A stretch of DNA of 53,600 bases, taken from assembly GCA_030065055.1 (NCBI GenBank), contig JASJDS010000016.1, positions 1-53,600 on the forward strand, in the 5' to 3' direction. The translations under genes and the position numbers were made by a program. Source of the DNA: Calothrix sp. MO_192.B10. Its GTDB lineage: Bacteria; Cyanobacteriota; Cyanobacteriia; Cyanobacteriales; Nostocaceae. The notes beneath the pieces are model-generated. The model worked only from the letters and a program-made list of their open reading frames with translations. It was not told the DNA's origin and searched no databases. Below, piece after piece: positions 5,022 through 36,434 of the stretch (position 1 is its first letter; each line of letters begins with the position of its first letter).

Positions 5022-5465
5022 TGATGTGTTATGATTTCCCAGGAAATTTCTTGGAGCTAATTTTTGTTACTATCTACCTGAAAATTGTATTTTACAAAAC
5101 ATCTTAATGTTGAGATTGTATGAGATAGTGGCTCTAATGGGGAGGAGTTGCCTTGACCCCTAGGGTGTCAATACAAATGTAGGCTAAAATTGGGGCTTTT
5201 ACTTGTCAGTTAACCGTTGTTGTCTATGTCATAGTTTTATGGCTGATTCGGCTTATTTCTTAGTCGAATGTAAAAATCATGTACACAACCTGCTAAAAAC
5301 ATAATTATTTTGGGAACAATACTACAGTACAACTGTGTCAGCAACCAGAAATTTGCTAGGGATGCTAATGCTTCCCTCAGATGAGCTGCTTAATATCAAG
5401 CAACTAGGTGGTTGGTTATAGTAGTACCAATTGGTTGAAGAGAATGCAAGATAAATGGTTTTTGC
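5022..5465. other. Intergenic region between divergent genes
   Basis: This 444-bp spacer separates the minus-strand pentapeptide gene from the plus-strand metalloprotease and should hold both promoters. No ORF, strong hairpin or known operator was seen. Confidence 0.5.
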
Positions 5466-30979: not shown

Positions 30980-31319
30980 TTAAACCTCATCCATCTTGAG
31001 AACTGGAGTTTTCCTTCCAGGGAATACCAAAAAAGAAATTATCCTGTAGGGGCACGGCATCTACAATATTCTTGTATAGGTCATAATCTTACTAATGCCG
31101 TGCCCTTTCGCGCCATTGGAATTCGTAAGTAAAAACTATAGGTTTCAAGGTAGACGCGGTTTAAAAGAATGTAGAATTTAGAATTTAGAATTTAGAATTG
31201 CGTTTTGCAACGGAGATTTTACCCCGACGCAAAACGCGCTGCTTGTAGAAGCAGGTGAATTTAACCCCCAAAGTTGGTTAATCTGATTGCTATTGTTTAG
31301 ATCCCCGACTTCATGTCTA
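30980..31319. other. Intergenic repeat-rich region
   Basis: Contains an inverted element at 31046-31105 (GTAGGGGCACGGCAT to ATGCCGTGCCC, as at 22853), a GAATTTA heptamer run near 31170-31200, a palindromic AACGGAGATTTTACCCCGAC / GCAAAACGCG segment, and a half site of the GATCCCCGACTTC repeat just before the STAND stop codon. No gene seen. Confidence 0.7.
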
Positions 31320-33677
31320 TTAACCAAACCGACGGAAGATAAAAGTCAAAATTTGTTTTACCAACAACCACAGCAAGTAAAACGGTAAAATCACTATCAC
31401 CAGTACAATTGCCACAAAATAACCTAACCAACGCTTCAAAATGCCAAGGGGAGTGCGTTGACGTTGCAAGATTGTCAAATTTTCTCGGACTGTCACCGTA
31501 GTGGGATGATTTACCCCTAACACCCGTTGGCACATCTCCAGGGCATCAACATAAAGGGGTTCGGCATCGGCGTAACGCCCTTGGCTATAGTAGAGTAACG
31601 CTAAATTGTTCAAGCTAGTAGCCACATTGGGATGGTCCCCTGCAAACAGCCGCTTTCTCATCTCCAGGGCATCAACATAAAGGGGTTCGGCTTCCGCGTA
31701 ACGCCCTTGGGAACGGTAGAGAAACGCTAAATTGTTCAAGCTAGTAGCCACATTGGGATGATCCCCTGCAAACAGCCGCTTTGTCATCTCCAGGGCATCA
31801 ACCAAAAGGGGTTCGGCTTCGGCGTAACGCCCTTGGCTATCGTAGAGTGCTGCTAAATTGTTCAAGCTTAGTGCCACATCCGGATGGTCCGCTGCAAACA
31901 GCCGCTTTCTCATCTCCAGGGCTTCAACATAAAGGGGTTCGGCTTCGGCGTAACGCCCTTGGCTATCGTAGAGTCCCGCTAAATTGTTCAAGCTCCCAGC
32001 CACATCCGGATGGTCCCCTGCAAACAGCCGCTTTGTCATCTCCAGGGCATCAACCAAAAGGGGTTCGGCTTCGGCGTAACGCCCTTGGGAACGGTAGAGT
32101 TCCGCTAAATTGTTCAAGCTAGTAGCCACATCCGGATGGTCCCCTGCAAACAAAACCTGGCAAACCCCTAGACATTCCTCACGCCAAGGTTCTGCTAATT
32201 GATAGAATCCCTGTCCCTGATAAAATCTTCCCACCCCTACAAATACCCAGGCGACTTCATCCTCAAGGACTGATGCAAGGGAATTTATCTGTCCCTGTTC
32301 TCTTTCCTTGGCTTCTGCGATTAAACGCCTTCCCAGTTCTTCAAGATGGGGATTTGTATCTTTGAAGATTTCGATCTGTTCAGAGGTAGGTGATGGGGGA
32401 ATCTGTCGCGCTATAGTAATCATGGCGGTGGCGAAGGTTCTTTCTAGGAGTGGTTGCATTTCGCCAGACTCCGCCAATTGTGACTGCAAAAACCACCGCA
32501 CTAGGGAATGAATTTGATAATATCCCTCTGTTTCTTCTACCTTTTGCAGCAAGTTGCGTTCGTAGAGTTGCTTTCTTGCTTCGTTGAACTCCTGTGGTGA
32601 CAAATTTAATAAATTGCCTACACAATCAAACTCCGCCTGCGCGGACTGGGATACTTGATCTGAATCAGTTTGTTCAATGTTTTGACTTTTTGTGGCTACC
32701 CAAACCACCAATTCCCAAAGAATCGATTGGGGAGAGAATAAACTCAAGAAGTTTCCTAATTGTTGCGTTAGGGGGTTGAGTCTTTCCCAGGTTAAAGTAA
32801 AGGCGGCTTTGATTCCCAGTTGAGTTGAGTTGAGAGTTTCCCGGTTTTGTAGGGCAGCTTCTGCTAATTTTTGCTCCTGCAACCGTTGTAACATCATGGG
32901 GAGGGATATTTCCGGGTCTTTGACTAAATAACCGCCCACTAAATCTATCCCCAAGGGCAAATATTCCAGACACGCACATATATTTGCTGCGGCTTCTGCT
33001 TGGTTTTCAACTCGTTTGTCTCCCTCTCCTAACAGCCGTTGCAACAGTTCTAATGCCTTTCCTGGTTCTTTTTTTGGGGAGAGAACATCTATGGGGATTT
33101 CTTGAATAAAATTACGGTCTAAATTTCGTAGCCTGGTAGTAACTAATACTCGGAAATGGCTATTGGTGGGAACAGCTTCCCGGAGATTGGCTAGGTCTGT
33201 TACGTCATCGAAGATAATCAGAATAGGTAAGTCAGAATGGGGATAGTTTGACCAACACCAAGCAACCTGTTCCTTCAGGGATAACAGTCTTTCTTGCTTG
33301 TCTTTTTGGGGAATTTCTAAACCCAACTGTAAACTGAAAAATTTTAAAACTTCCCCAGGAAGATTAGTTTCTCTGGCGTTAAACCAAACTATTCCTCCAT
33401 ACTTATCTTCATATCTTCTCGCATATTGGGTAGCTAATTCCGTTTTACCTACCCCTCCCATCCCCGCTAACGCTACATAATCCCCACGCTGCAAGTCTCC
33501 ATGCAACAGGGATAGTTCCCTTTCTCGCCCCACAAAATGGACAGAACCGCGAGGTATATTTTTTGTGGGACGTAACTGTTTTTCCCCGTGAATAATCTGA
33601 GTCCCAATGTAAGCTTGTCCACCAGGCATAACCACCTGACCAATTTTCTCAGCAAACTTCCTGGAATCTTCAGACAT
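31320..33677 (-). CDS. STAND NTPase: NB-ARC domain, TPR array, C-terminal membrane helix
   Basis: A 785-residue signal-transduction ATPase. After a 45-residue leader containing AEKIGQVVMPGG comes FVGREREL, P-loop GMGGVGKTE (residues 72-80), Walker B ILIIFDDV, sensor VTTRLRN, a GLPL-like LEYLPLGIDL and an MHD-like IHSLVRWF. Residues ~500-735 hold five near-identical 42-residue kinesin-light-chain-type TPRs plus a partial one. A hydrophobic segment (YFVAIVLVIVILPFYLLWLL) and basic tail RRFG end the protein. This NLR-like architecture resembles bacterial sensor/defence switches, but no effector domain is fused. The gene at 33705 ends 27 bp upstream and shares the leader peptide, so the two probably act together. 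Confidence 0.9.
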   Translation of the reverse strand: MSEDSRKFAEKIGQVVMPGGQAYIGTQIIHGEKQLRPTKNIPRGSVHFVGRERELSLLHGDLQRGDYVALAGMGGVGKTELATQYARRYEDKYGGIVWFNARETNLPGEVLKFFSLQLGLEIPQKDKQERLLSLKEQVAWCWSNYPHSDLPILIIFDDVTDLANLREAVPTNSHFRVLVTTRLRNLDRNFIQEIPIDVLSPKKEPGKALELLQRLLGEGDKRVENQAEAAANICACLEYLPLGIDLVGGYLVKDPEISLPMMLQRLQEQKLAEAALQNRETLNSTQLGIKAAFTLTWERLNPLTQQLGNFLSLFSPQSILWELVVWVATKSQNIEQTDSDQVSQSAQAEFDCVGNLLNLSPQEFNEARKQLYERNLLQKVEETEGYYQIHSLVRWFLQSQLAESGEMQPLLERTFATAMITIARQIPPSPTSEQIEIFKDTNPHLEELGRRLIAEAKEREQGQINSLASVLEDEVAWVFVGVGRFYQGQGFYQLAEPWREECLGVCQVLFAGDHPDVATSLNNLAELYRSQGRYAEAEPLLVDALEMTKRLFAGDHPDVAGSLNNLAGLYDSQGRYAEAEPLYVEALEMRKRLFAADHPDVALSLNNLAALYDSQGRYAEAEPLLVDALEMTKRLFAGDHPNVATSLNNLAFLYRSQGRYAEAEPLYVDALEMRKRLFAGDHPNVATSLNNLALLYYSQGRYADAEPLYVDALEMCQRVLGVNHPTTVTVRENLTILQRQRTPLGILKRWLGYFVAIVLVIVILPFYLLWLLVKQILTFIFRRFG
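31530..32150 (-). repeat. 126-bp in-frame tandem repeats encoding TPRs
   Basis: Five copies of a 126-bp unit, differing mostly in a few codons, encode 42-residue TPRs reading KRLFAGDHP(D/N)VATSLNNL then YxSQGRYAEAEPLxVDALEM. The nucleotide-level similarity shows recent expansion or gene conversion. Confidence 0.92.
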
Positions 33678-33704
33678 TATTTATACAGTTACCTATCGCC
33701 AAGT

Positions 33705-34103
33705 TTAAAACGACTGATTCTCGATCTTTCCTTTTCCACCAGGCATAACCACCTGACCAATTTTTTCTGCCAATTTTTGTAAATTAGGCATGGAAAGAAT
33801 TTCATTAAATTTGGGATTGGGTTCTGCTTTCGCTGCTGCTACTAATTCCTGCATAGCTTGATTAACTTCAGGATTAGCTTGAGCAGCAGATTCTACTTCT
33901 AATACAGCCTTGCCATAATCAAGTGGTTGTTCTGGTGCTTTCTCGATCCCACTTACAGTCTGGGGAGATTGTTTTCTCAGCTTGACGAGAAACTTACCAG
34001 TCTTGTCCCATAAAGCTTCGGCTACTTTTTCACCCGTTTTTTCCAGTGCTTTAGTCGCAACCACTGAACCAATGGCTATAGCCGCAGTACTTAAAGGTTC
34101 CAT
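33705..34103 (-). CDS. Small protein paired with the STAND NTPase
   Basis: A 132-residue protein. The N-terminus MEPLSTAAIAIGSVVATKAL is hydrophobic/amphipathic and may insert in or attach to membrane; then EKVAEALWDKTGKFLVKLRK, a linker, a helical section (VNQAMQELVAAAKAEPNPKF) and the tail KLAEKIGQVVMPGG. The tail peptide recurs at the N-terminus of the STAND protein encoded 27 bp downstream, and 29 bp of DNA are identical in the two places. I recall this N-terminal block fused to NTPases in other cyanobacteria, suggesting that a single ancestral protein was split. Function unknown; a regulatory or effector module is inferred. Confidence 0.75.
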   Translation of the reverse strand: MEPLSTAAIAIGSVVATKALEKTGEKVAEALWDKTGKFLVKLRKQSPQTVSGIEKAPEQPLDYGKAVLEVESAAQANPEVNQAMQELVAAAKAEPNPKFNEILSMPNLQKLAEKIGQVVMPGGKGKIENQSF

Positions 34104-34532
34104 AAATCACACCAACCACAATTGTATTTTGAGCATATATACAATGGTGACTGACAAATCAGAACTCAAATATAGAAGTTCAAAATACTTAAGATATTCT
34201 CGAAGGGGTGACAGAGTAACAGATCCCCGACTTCTTAAAGAAGTCGGGGATCTAAACACCCGCAACTCAGCAAAATTAATGTGGTTAAGTACTAATACAA
34301 GATGACAAACAGGTATTAAATATAACCATAAGTGAAAGAGCGATCGCTAACTATTACAAGTCGGCGGAAATACAGCAATGGTTTATAAAATGTCAAAGCA
34401 AGAGTTCACAATACTTTTGACTTCCGCGCAGCGGTACTATGGCGTTCCTATTAGCCTGGAGTGATGAAGTTCCATTATTCTTAACCTTGAGATGTAAAAA
34501 TTGCCATATGTAAAGCATAGGAAGAAAGTGAG
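34104..34532. other. Divergent spacer with a perfect palindrome and a dispersed repeat
   Basis: 34221-34253 is a perfect palindrome (16-bp arms AGATCCCCGACTTCTT around one base). 34294-34350 is a 57-bp dispersed repeat ending in AGAGCGATCGCTAA, with a second copy at 38333-38389. No gene. The spacer separates the STAND pair from the pentapeptide gene. Confidence 0.85.
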
Positions 34533-35822: not shown

Positions 35823-36434
35823 TTATCCCGCGAGTTCACTCTCTTGCTTCTCTTGCTCTGTTTCTGCTGGCTTAGGGGTATCTATTGCCACAACATCTGG
35901 TTCTACAACAGGTTCATCTGAAGGTTGAGGACTTGTTTGCTCTGTTTCTGCTGGCTTAGGGGTATTAATTGCCACAACATCTGGTTCTACAACAGGTTCA
36001 TCTGAAGGTTGAGGACTTGTTTGCTCTGTTTCTGCTGGCTTAGGGGTATTAATTGCCACAACATCTGGTTCTACAACAGGTTCATCTGAAGGTTGAGGAC
36101 TTGTTGGTTTTGCCTTTTTTGAGAATCCAATAGCTGTCAAAACTTCACCAGTACTAACTAAGAAGCGAATCACTCCTTTATCTAAATCTTTCTTACCTCG
36201 CTGTTGAGAAACTTGAATAATTCTTTCTCCCAATTTTTCCCCAACTTCCCTAGCCTCTGACAAGTCAGTGAAAGACTTTTTTTTAGAAACGGTTTTTACT
36301 AGCAGTTCCAACTCCTTATTCCCTTTGCGAGTAGTGGAATTAATTCCTTGTAATGCCACATTTTTCTTAATAGTCTTAGTGATAACTTTCACCAGCTGCT
36401 TATTACTCAATGTTGCCTGACTCTTTTGGCTCAT
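35823..36434 (-). CDS. Hypothetical protein with three 28-residue C-terminal repeats
   Basis: A 203-residue protein. The basic N-terminal part (SNKQLVKVITKTIKKNVALQ; EAREVGEKLGERIIQVSQQR; GVIRFLVSTGEVLTAIGFSK) looks helical and globular. The C-terminal half is three nearly identical 84-bp / 28-residue units with the pattern SPQPSDEPVVEPDVVAIxTP then KPAETEQ, followed by EKQESELAG. The repeats are acidic and Pro/Glu-rich, probably an extended flexible stalk. No signal peptide. Function unknown. The DNA identity of the units suggests length polymorphism between strains. Confidence 0.7.
   Translation of the reverse strand: MSQKSQATLSNKQLVKVITKTIKKNVALQGINSTTRKGNKELELLVKTVSKKKSFTDLSEAREVGEKLGERIIQVSQQRGKKDLDKGVIRFLVSTGEVLTAIGFSKKAKPTSPQPSDEPVVEPDVVAINTPKPAETEQTSPQPSDEPVVEPDVVAINTPKPAETEQTSPQPSDEPVVEPDVVAIDTPKPAETEQEKQESELAG

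Follow-up and report, generated by a model that had tools for sequence, protein, structure and literature searches.

Amyloid signalosomes that pair Bell proteins with NOD-like receptors (NLRs) and carry BASS motifs were reportedly described by Dyrka et al. in 2020. The accessible portion of a review on amyloid signaling (PMC7889193) places these systems in filamentous actinobacteria and cyanobacteria and gives their layout as a small effector and an NLR encoded by adjacent genes, with the motif at the C-terminus of the effector and at the N-terminus of the NLR, the latter carrying a STAND NTPase and a repeat domain. It also covers the fungal HET-S and PP-motif NLR systems, in which an NLR tag likewise templates an effector tag, although the sequences differ, and it states that homology between BELL and HeLo domains cannot be detected at the sequence level. 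Here, we describe a gene pair with the bacterial layout, consisting of a small Bell-like effector and a STAND receptor with NB-ARC and TPR domains, together with an RNA element found in its relatives. The pair is located in the window, which is the whole 53,600-nucleotide stretch that was analyzed (Calothrix sp. MO_192.B10, assembly GCA_030065055.1, contig JASJDS010000016.1, positions 1 to 53,600).

Our reading of the window pair, to which we assign a probability of roughly three in four, is that a Bell-like effector and an NLR receptor share an amyloid-type (BASS-like) tag and probably descend from a readthrough form. For many cyanobacteria of the window's order, sequence comparison makes it quite likely that the NLR-like receptor is a readthrough extension of its own executioner gene, directed by UGA-CUR and an H-type pseudoknot 8 nt downstream. 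An excess of free Bell and a minority of Bell-tag-NLR would then be made from one mRNA, and the two-gene pairs would be repeated escapes by tag duplication. An earlier note on this DNA had called the receptor inflammasome-like; the pair is likely a member of the Bell/NLR amyloid signalosomes known from filamentous bacteria (PMC7889193, accessible portion), which is the more precise description.

The effector open reading frame (ORF) lies upstream of the receptor ORF on the minus strand with a gap of 27 bp, as the earlier note had it (coordinates in Table 1). Pfam places the NB-ARC domain at residues 61-274 and the TPRs at residues ∼516-730 of the STAND protein, and residues ∼755-773 are very hydrophobic. 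The C-terminal hydrophobic helix is alike in L051, L053, L058, and L064 (loci are given by our own numbers), weaker in L044 and L094, and was not seen in L043. The 132-residue effector matched no Pfam or NCBIfam family over the cut-off (best E values of 0.12 and 0.13) and no PADLOC model at E 1. The system-specific PADLOC models left the pair unmatched; only a TPR model and PDC-M71B were returned, confined to the TPR region. Avs and bacterial NACHT proteins, as the accessible part of PMC10907252 presents them, likewise combine a STAND core with a repeat sensor; unlike these, the window receptor has no effector domain fused at its N-terminus. The AlphaFold model of the effector is all-helical with an unstructured tail (mean predicted local distance difference test score of 60.8). 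Comparison of the model with the PDB gave nothing significant (best E 1.5), and the best hit of a PDB sequence search with the effector profile, a designed repeat protein at E 0.048, was not taken up. The N-terminal hydrophobic segment of the effector is modest (mean 1.14). The same genome also contains a second, distant Bell-like ORF of 152 aa (L002:1285-1743, minus strand; G000:C123; match E 0.056), which has a G-rich tail; in this locus, the ORF list gives none of at least 60 aa that follows it on the same strand.

The two window proteins are linked by a repeated peptide, as the last 23 residues of the effector and residues 7-29 of the receptor are versions of one sequence. The earlier note had recognized this shared tag and had misplaced its borders; the small protein ends nine residues after KLAEKIGQVVMPGG (...GGKGKIENQSF), and the STAND protein begins six residues before its copy. 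At the DNA level, positions 33619-33647 and 33736-33764 are identical over 29 bp, as claimed, and a repeat search recovered a 63-nt pair with 81% identity whose copies lie exactly 117 bp apart. Within 32279-34103, the longest exact repeat is 30 bp, whereas 200 sequences simulated from this region with a first-order Markov model gave 14 bp at most.

When 388 genomes of the window's order were searched in six frames with the 132-residue protein, 132 of them gave matches. We fetched 100 regions, mostly the best-ranked of the matches listed with some passed over, and surveyed them together with the window (101 loci); the fractions of loci given here are not population frequencies, and loci L143-L172 overlap in part with places represented in L043-L142. 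The effector relatives align over their first ∼100 residues and diverge in their C-terminal tails. Where the locus is of the two-gene form, the STAND protein opens with a peptide that resembles the tail of its own upstream neighbor. For 17 such loci, local alignment of the effector tail with its own receptor N-terminus gave scores of 45-99 (mean ∼71), and the cognate receptor ranked first in nine of 17, where members of the same tag class can score as high or higher. When one locus was taken for each of the six tag classes, the true pairing was the best of 720. The tag is probably a docking or polymerization signal, in keeping with the common docking tail that the earlier note had envisaged.

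An ordinary homotypic contact through a death-fold or effector-associated domain (EAD)-like adaptor, with no amyloid templating, is an unlikely explanation, though the most probable of the rival readings. Bacterial EADs couple STAND proteins with their effectors through homotypic contacts, as stated in the accessible part of PMC8195603. However, nine of twelve EADs are described there as alpha-helical domains, whereas the shared part here is a G/N/Q-rich tail of ∼23 residues in a low-confidence stretch of the model, which fits the BASS layout as published (PMC7889193, accessible portion). In addition, the effector has no domain over the cut-off in Pfam, a database that may not cover all EADs. 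Amyloid templating remains the preferred role of the tag. Since the known families behave in this way, the TPR/NB-ARC protein would sense a trigger through its TPRs and then oligomerize in an NTP-dependent manner, the N-terminal tags of the oligomer would template the matching C-terminal tags of the Bell-like protein, and the templated protein would stop or kill the cell, probably by attacking the membrane. Such a response may serve defense against phage or stress.

In most relatives, the STAND ORF continues in the frame of Bell, directly after its stop codon. Sixty-two loci were called in-frame, and the stop is TGA in 60 of them, followed by the approximate consensus CTR NNG YCG YCY NNN GGG GAR CGG RYA AAG ... 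CCC. The pattern TGA-N6-YCG is present at the Bell stop in 64 of the 101 loci, with C as base +4 in 60 of the 64; the stops of the 37 loci without the element are TAA (19), TAG (9), and TGA (9). UGA-CUA is a known readthrough context in eukaryotes. The element comprises an 8-nt spacer, a 5-bp stem 1, and a second helix formed by pairing of the loop with a segment 3' of the stem, in a register that is sometimes shifted by one base, which gives an H-type pseudoknot. Within the 42 regular elements, 199 of 210 stem 1 cells are paired, and swapping 3' halves between loci reached the observed pairing in 0 of 20,000 permutations for stem 1 and stem 2 each. The 36 distinct aligned elements have 89.8% of cells paired, as compared to 81.6% in shuffles (0/500) and to 46-58% when the partner is slid by one base. 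The number of cells with double changes and the covariation score were each reached in 0 of 500 shuffles and collapse on sliding. Compensated changes occur both in stem 1 (CCCG/CGGG to CCTG/CAGG) and in the loop helix (GGGA/TCCC to CAGGA/TCCTG or GCGA/TCGC).

The closest described counterpart of this element is the murine leukemia virus gag-pol signal (PMC4178896, accessible part), which likewise combines a stop codon, an 8-nt spacer, a compact hairpin-type pseudoknot, and an in-frame second ORF to set a product ratio. It differs in using UAG rather than UGA and in that the relatives' element would act on a bacterial ribosome; the likeness concerns the sequences of the relatives, not of the window. 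A covariance model of the element, R1 (built, like alignment A1, with L049, L097, L120, and L136 also excluded), was run at E 1e-4, with filters under which weak matches are lost, on 386 genomes sampled across the phylum; 28 of them matched, and each belongs to the window's order. Thirty loci were returned, of which 29 could be parsed. In every one of the 29, the TGA ends a short ORF that looks Bell-like by eye, and at least 97 codons stay open behind it (only 97-104 in L144, L166, and L169). R1 matches in L107 and L184 (E 0.75) were treated as chance. Searching eight loci against Rfam at E 1 gave no family, with only two subthreshold matches, to a microRNA and a small nucleolar RNA family, and viral contigs gave no exact element match with a pattern that is insensitive (27 of 197 loci found). 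By eye, a second Bell-like family (e.g., MADPVTLTA..., MEPITVATI...) precedes the same element in L148, L158, L160, L162, L166, L167, and L170. Natural variants in which the 3' part of the pseudoknot is altered or lost and the frame is kept occur in L173-L176 (behind the match, near 5390; L174 and L175 are from Nostoc punctiforme NIES-2108) and in L120.

The region behind the stop shows signs of being translated. At least 150 codons are open in frame after the TGA in 58 of the 64 element loci, and 56 of these carry a P-loop pattern. Taking Bell ORFs as a whole, a continuation of this length was found for 61 of 90, as compared to eight of 366 other ORFs of similar size from the same loci. Ten of the post-stop proteins were scanned, of which nine have a NACHT or NB-ARC domain over the cut-off and one (L056) only a TPR. 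The first start codon after the TGA is at least 15 codons away in 52 of 58 loci and at least 30 codons away in 25 of 58, and in seven of 56 it coincides with the P-loop or follows it, which means that translation from there could not give an intact NTPase. Over the start-free stretch beyond the pseudoknot, the ratio of nonsynonymous to synonymous substitution rates (dN/dS) is 0-0.55 in 52 of 52 overlapping pairs passing filters, for example 0.33 over 104 codons in L086/L091. Without the filter for protein identity, 53 pairs of 25 loci at 70-99% DNA identity, a set that includes poorly aligned pairs and overlaps with the dN/dS pairs, gave a pooled ratio of nonsynonymous to synonymous differences (pN/pS) of 0.58 in frame 0 versus 1.15 and 1.31 in the other frames. 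In Escherichia coli, according to the accessible part of PMC11126739, no stop codon is more prone to error than UGA, which is mostly read as tryptophan.

It could be argued that the STAND ORF of the relatives uses its own internal or non-canonical start and that the element is a coupling, reinitiation, or RNA-stability signal. On the plasmid of Nostoc sp. UHCC 0870 (L195), RefSeq indeed places the start of the STAND gene 114 nt past the TGA, behind the FVGR motif, and some ATG, GTG, or TTG precedes the P-loop in 49 of 56 loci. We nevertheless regard this as rather improbable. The frame is maintained starting with the codon right behind the stop, and that codon is CTA, not a usual start codon, in 25 of the 62 in-frame loci; the codons ahead of any start show purifying selection in frame 0 alone; seven of the 20 FVGR-type loci have no start ahead of the FVGR motif; and the N-terminal tag of the two-gene receptors fits a tagged readthrough product as precursor. 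Under the preferred readthrough reading, most ribosomes would release free Bell and a minority would make Bell-tag-NLR, a receptor that bears the same tag with no separate copy of it. Indeed, no tag was found behind the stop in the 58 readthrough loci (mean score 20.1 versus 19.9 for non-cognate pairs). Two-gene loci, in contrast, average ∼71, and the receptor thus seems to need a tag within its own polypeptide, supplied by readthrough or as a separate copy. With readthrough, the excess of effector over receptor would be fixed on one mRNA, whereas the two-gene form would free this ratio. As a bolder extension, translational stress or an infection that slows termination at UGA would raise the dose of receptor.

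The window locus is not of the readthrough form, as it has TAA and further stops and a receptor with its own ATG. On an NB-ARC tree of 66 rows (55 different; 46 readthrough and 20 two-gene), the two forms are intermixed and at least 11 changes are needed, seven of which are forced by starred branches. The nearest neighbor of the window is L044 (two-gene), followed by L058 and L047 (readthrough), and very close relatives can be of opposite form, such as L061, L066, and L074 (two-gene, own tag) versus L062 and L167 (readthrough). The direction of change is suggested by L140, whose two-gene receptor reads tag-ATT-TCG-TCC-GAA-CGG-GAA-CGG-GTA-AAG-TCA-AAT-CCT, i.e., the pseudoknot is now coding, directly after the duplicated tag, and the stop is gone. 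This fossil (L140:2979-3017) matches R1 positions 10-48 with an E of 1.9e-5. Together with the shorter element remains seen by eye in L190 and L192, it suggests that the two-gene form came from the readthrough form. In the window clade, what can be recognized by eye is limited to the linker and the 3' part of the element, and R1 does not score it, so the direction there is no more than probable; the window form probably derives from a readthrough ancestor by tag duplication. In that lineage, the receptor would have gained a start codon and a tag copy of its own, the stop would have become TAA, and the tags would later have been partly homogenized.

These data modify the earlier proposal that duplication split one ancestral protein. 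Many relatives do have both halves in one frame, across a UGA, and the two-gene form probably did arise by tag duplication; however, the ancestor was probably not a plain fusion but two in-frame ORFs parted by a conserved UGA and pseudoknot. A plain sense-codon fusion was considered as ancestor and rejected. In L075 and L079, the start of Bell is joined to unrelated-looking sequence of another kind, and L142 has a broken Bell part, so there is no clean fused homolog among these. Broken or rearranged Bell genes, with an internal stop, a Bell start joined elsewhere, or a broken Bell part, were seen in L070, L075, L079, L105, and L142.

The near identity of the two window tags appears to have a later origin than their duplication. 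The receptor tags of L043/L044 read KIGAFAAPG(S/A)Q and those of L057/L059 read KIGAFAAPGSK, and the effector tags of L043/L044 read KIGQVVMPGGT. The window receptor tag carries the effector version in its center only, where 21 of 21 bases match its own effector and 9-10 of 21 match the L043/L044 receptors. Its 3' flank matches the receptors at 19-20 of 24 bases versus 13 of 24 for its own effector, and the 5' flank discriminates poorly (17/21 versus 19/21). Such a mosaic is the pattern expected from a short conversion following an older duplication. Judged by these matches, ∼21 bp of the Bell tag were probably copied into the window's NLR tag by local conversion, which would be one route for keeping matched specificity. 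An assembly error, which the earlier note had raised as an objection, is an unlikely source of such a mosaic.

That the shared peptide is a mere trace of a recent tandem duplication between two functionally unlinked proteins is very improbable in our judgment. The clean 117-bp spacing and the 30-bp exact core would fit such an event, but L043, L044, L051-L053, and L059 are already tagged on both proteins and the duplication is therefore not recent, six tag classes occur as matched pairs (two are single-locus and two resemble each other), and readthrough loci have no second tag. The earlier note was thus right about a duplication and wrong in taking it as the direct source of the identity, which fits the later conversion. 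Decoding of the UGA as selenocysteine, suggested by the UGA and hairpin layout of bacterial selenocysteine insertion sequences, was rejected as next to impossible, as SelB is over its family cut-off in 0 of 19 genomes (18 element carriers and the window's) versus two of 14 controls, and the SelB matches listed below the cut-off span its N-terminal half, which is what other elongation factors would give.

Several observations count against the readings that we favor. With respect to the element, the number of pairs with a double change (six) is unremarkable, being reached in 72 of 500 shuffles, the stem and permutation counts exclude 22 of the 64 elements, which have irregular loops, and the clade of L076, L078, L083, L084, and L089 has a different 3' half that misfits stem 2, where a hairpin GAGA/TCTC perhaps takes its place. 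The window and its genome have no readthrough element by R1 at E 0.1 (150 of 2398 first-look candidates scored), and a significant fossil was found by R1 in only one (L140) of 25 element-less sources. With respect to translation, fewer than 150 codons are open in six of the 64 element loci (L077 is truncated at the border of its fetched region and some may be decayed), the dN/dS pairs were kept only at >50% protein identity, a filter biased to low values, and some close pairs look unconstrained when unfiltered (L082/L090, 1.62; L085/L090, 1.05). A reporter study in E. coli, in the accessible part of PMC11126739, found that G rather than C after the stop lowers termination. The NB-ARC tree is unrooted, was made by a quick method, and includes near-copies, and the L124 effector tail scores 82 with a KIG-type receptor versus 49 with its own partner. 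Lastly, the Bell assignment is uncertain, as it relies on size, position, the N-terminal hydrophobic segment, and a predicted helical fold from a weak model.

If readthrough is confirmed, the element would be a conserved and structured programmed-readthrough signal in bacterial chromosomes and plasmids that ties recoding to the stoichiometry of innate immunity. Bacteria would then have an equivalent of retroviral gag-pol recoding that serves immunity and is hidden by annotation, and this may explain STAND genes that are annotated seemingly without an N-terminus, of which one case was seen. The repeated switching between readthrough and duplicated tags would also be natural evidence that the tag must sit physically on the receptor, which makes tag-based signaling directly testable. 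Our search of the open-access literature found no paper linking readthrough with bacterial NLRs. The accessible portion of the review PMC7889193 contains neither "readthrough" nor "stop codon", and the readthrough form and the tag conversion seem undescribed there.

Table 1. Features of the window pair, examples of the putative readthrough element, and tag classes of the two-gene loci.
Feature	Location	Strand	Basis or remark
Bell-like effector ORF, 132 aa	33705..34103	-	ends in a normal TAA; low-confidence model all-helical, with residues 111-132 as unstructured tail
Effector C-terminal tag (KLAEKIGQVVMPGGKGKIENQSF and stop)	33705..33776	-	sequence comparison with relatives
STAND/NLR-like receptor, 785 aa (tag, NB-ARC, TPRs, C-terminal hydrophobic helix)	31320..33677	-	
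Receptor N-terminal tag (KFAEKIGQVVMPGGQAYIGTQII)	33591..33659	-	sequence comparison with relatives
21-bp core of receptor tag, probable conversion tract	33618..33638	-	identical to effector tag 33735-33755, unlike orthologous receptor tags
Leader from tag to NB-ARC	33552..33590	-	by eye resembles 3' part of readthrough element and linker of relatives (GGGGAA...TTA..TCCCACAAAA); no match to model R1
NB-ARC NTPase domain	32856..33497	-	Pfam, E 3.2e-14
TPR array	31488..32132	-	Pfam; 126-bp units; three shifted 271-nt copies 85-88% identical to reference
C-terminal hydrophobic segment, probable membrane anchor	31359..31415	-	mean Kyte-Doolittle 3.06 over 19 residues
Putative readthrough element, examples	L115:4891-4938; L128:4927-4974; L195 near 2570	- (L115, L128)	element seen across L045-L142 and L143-L172
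KIG-type tag	window, L043, L044, L051-L053, L059		class set by eye
KIVNY-type tag	L061, L074		class set by eye
NENWQGI-type tag	L048, L134, L140		class set by eye
DNYGV-type tag	L096, L100, L101		class set by eye
LQEK-type tag	L060		class set by eye
Other KIG-like tag	L124		class set by eye

The 126-bp TPR units at window positions 31378-32278 are highly alike, which suggests a recent expansion or homogenization of the sensor, and a further TPR stretch with a protein identity of 68% is located elsewhere in the genome (G000:C80:10120-10692). The two-gene unit is bracketed by inverted repeat copies (31287-31312 and 34240-34265) containing AGATCCCCGACTTC/GAAGTCGGGGATCT; the dispersed repeat GAAGTCGGGGATCT has 307 copies in the genome and was hence set aside as not specific. 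Further along the window, positions 35823-36434 (minus strand) encode a 203-aa protein with three near-identical repeats of TSPQPSDEPVVEPDVVAI(N/D)TPKPAETEQ.

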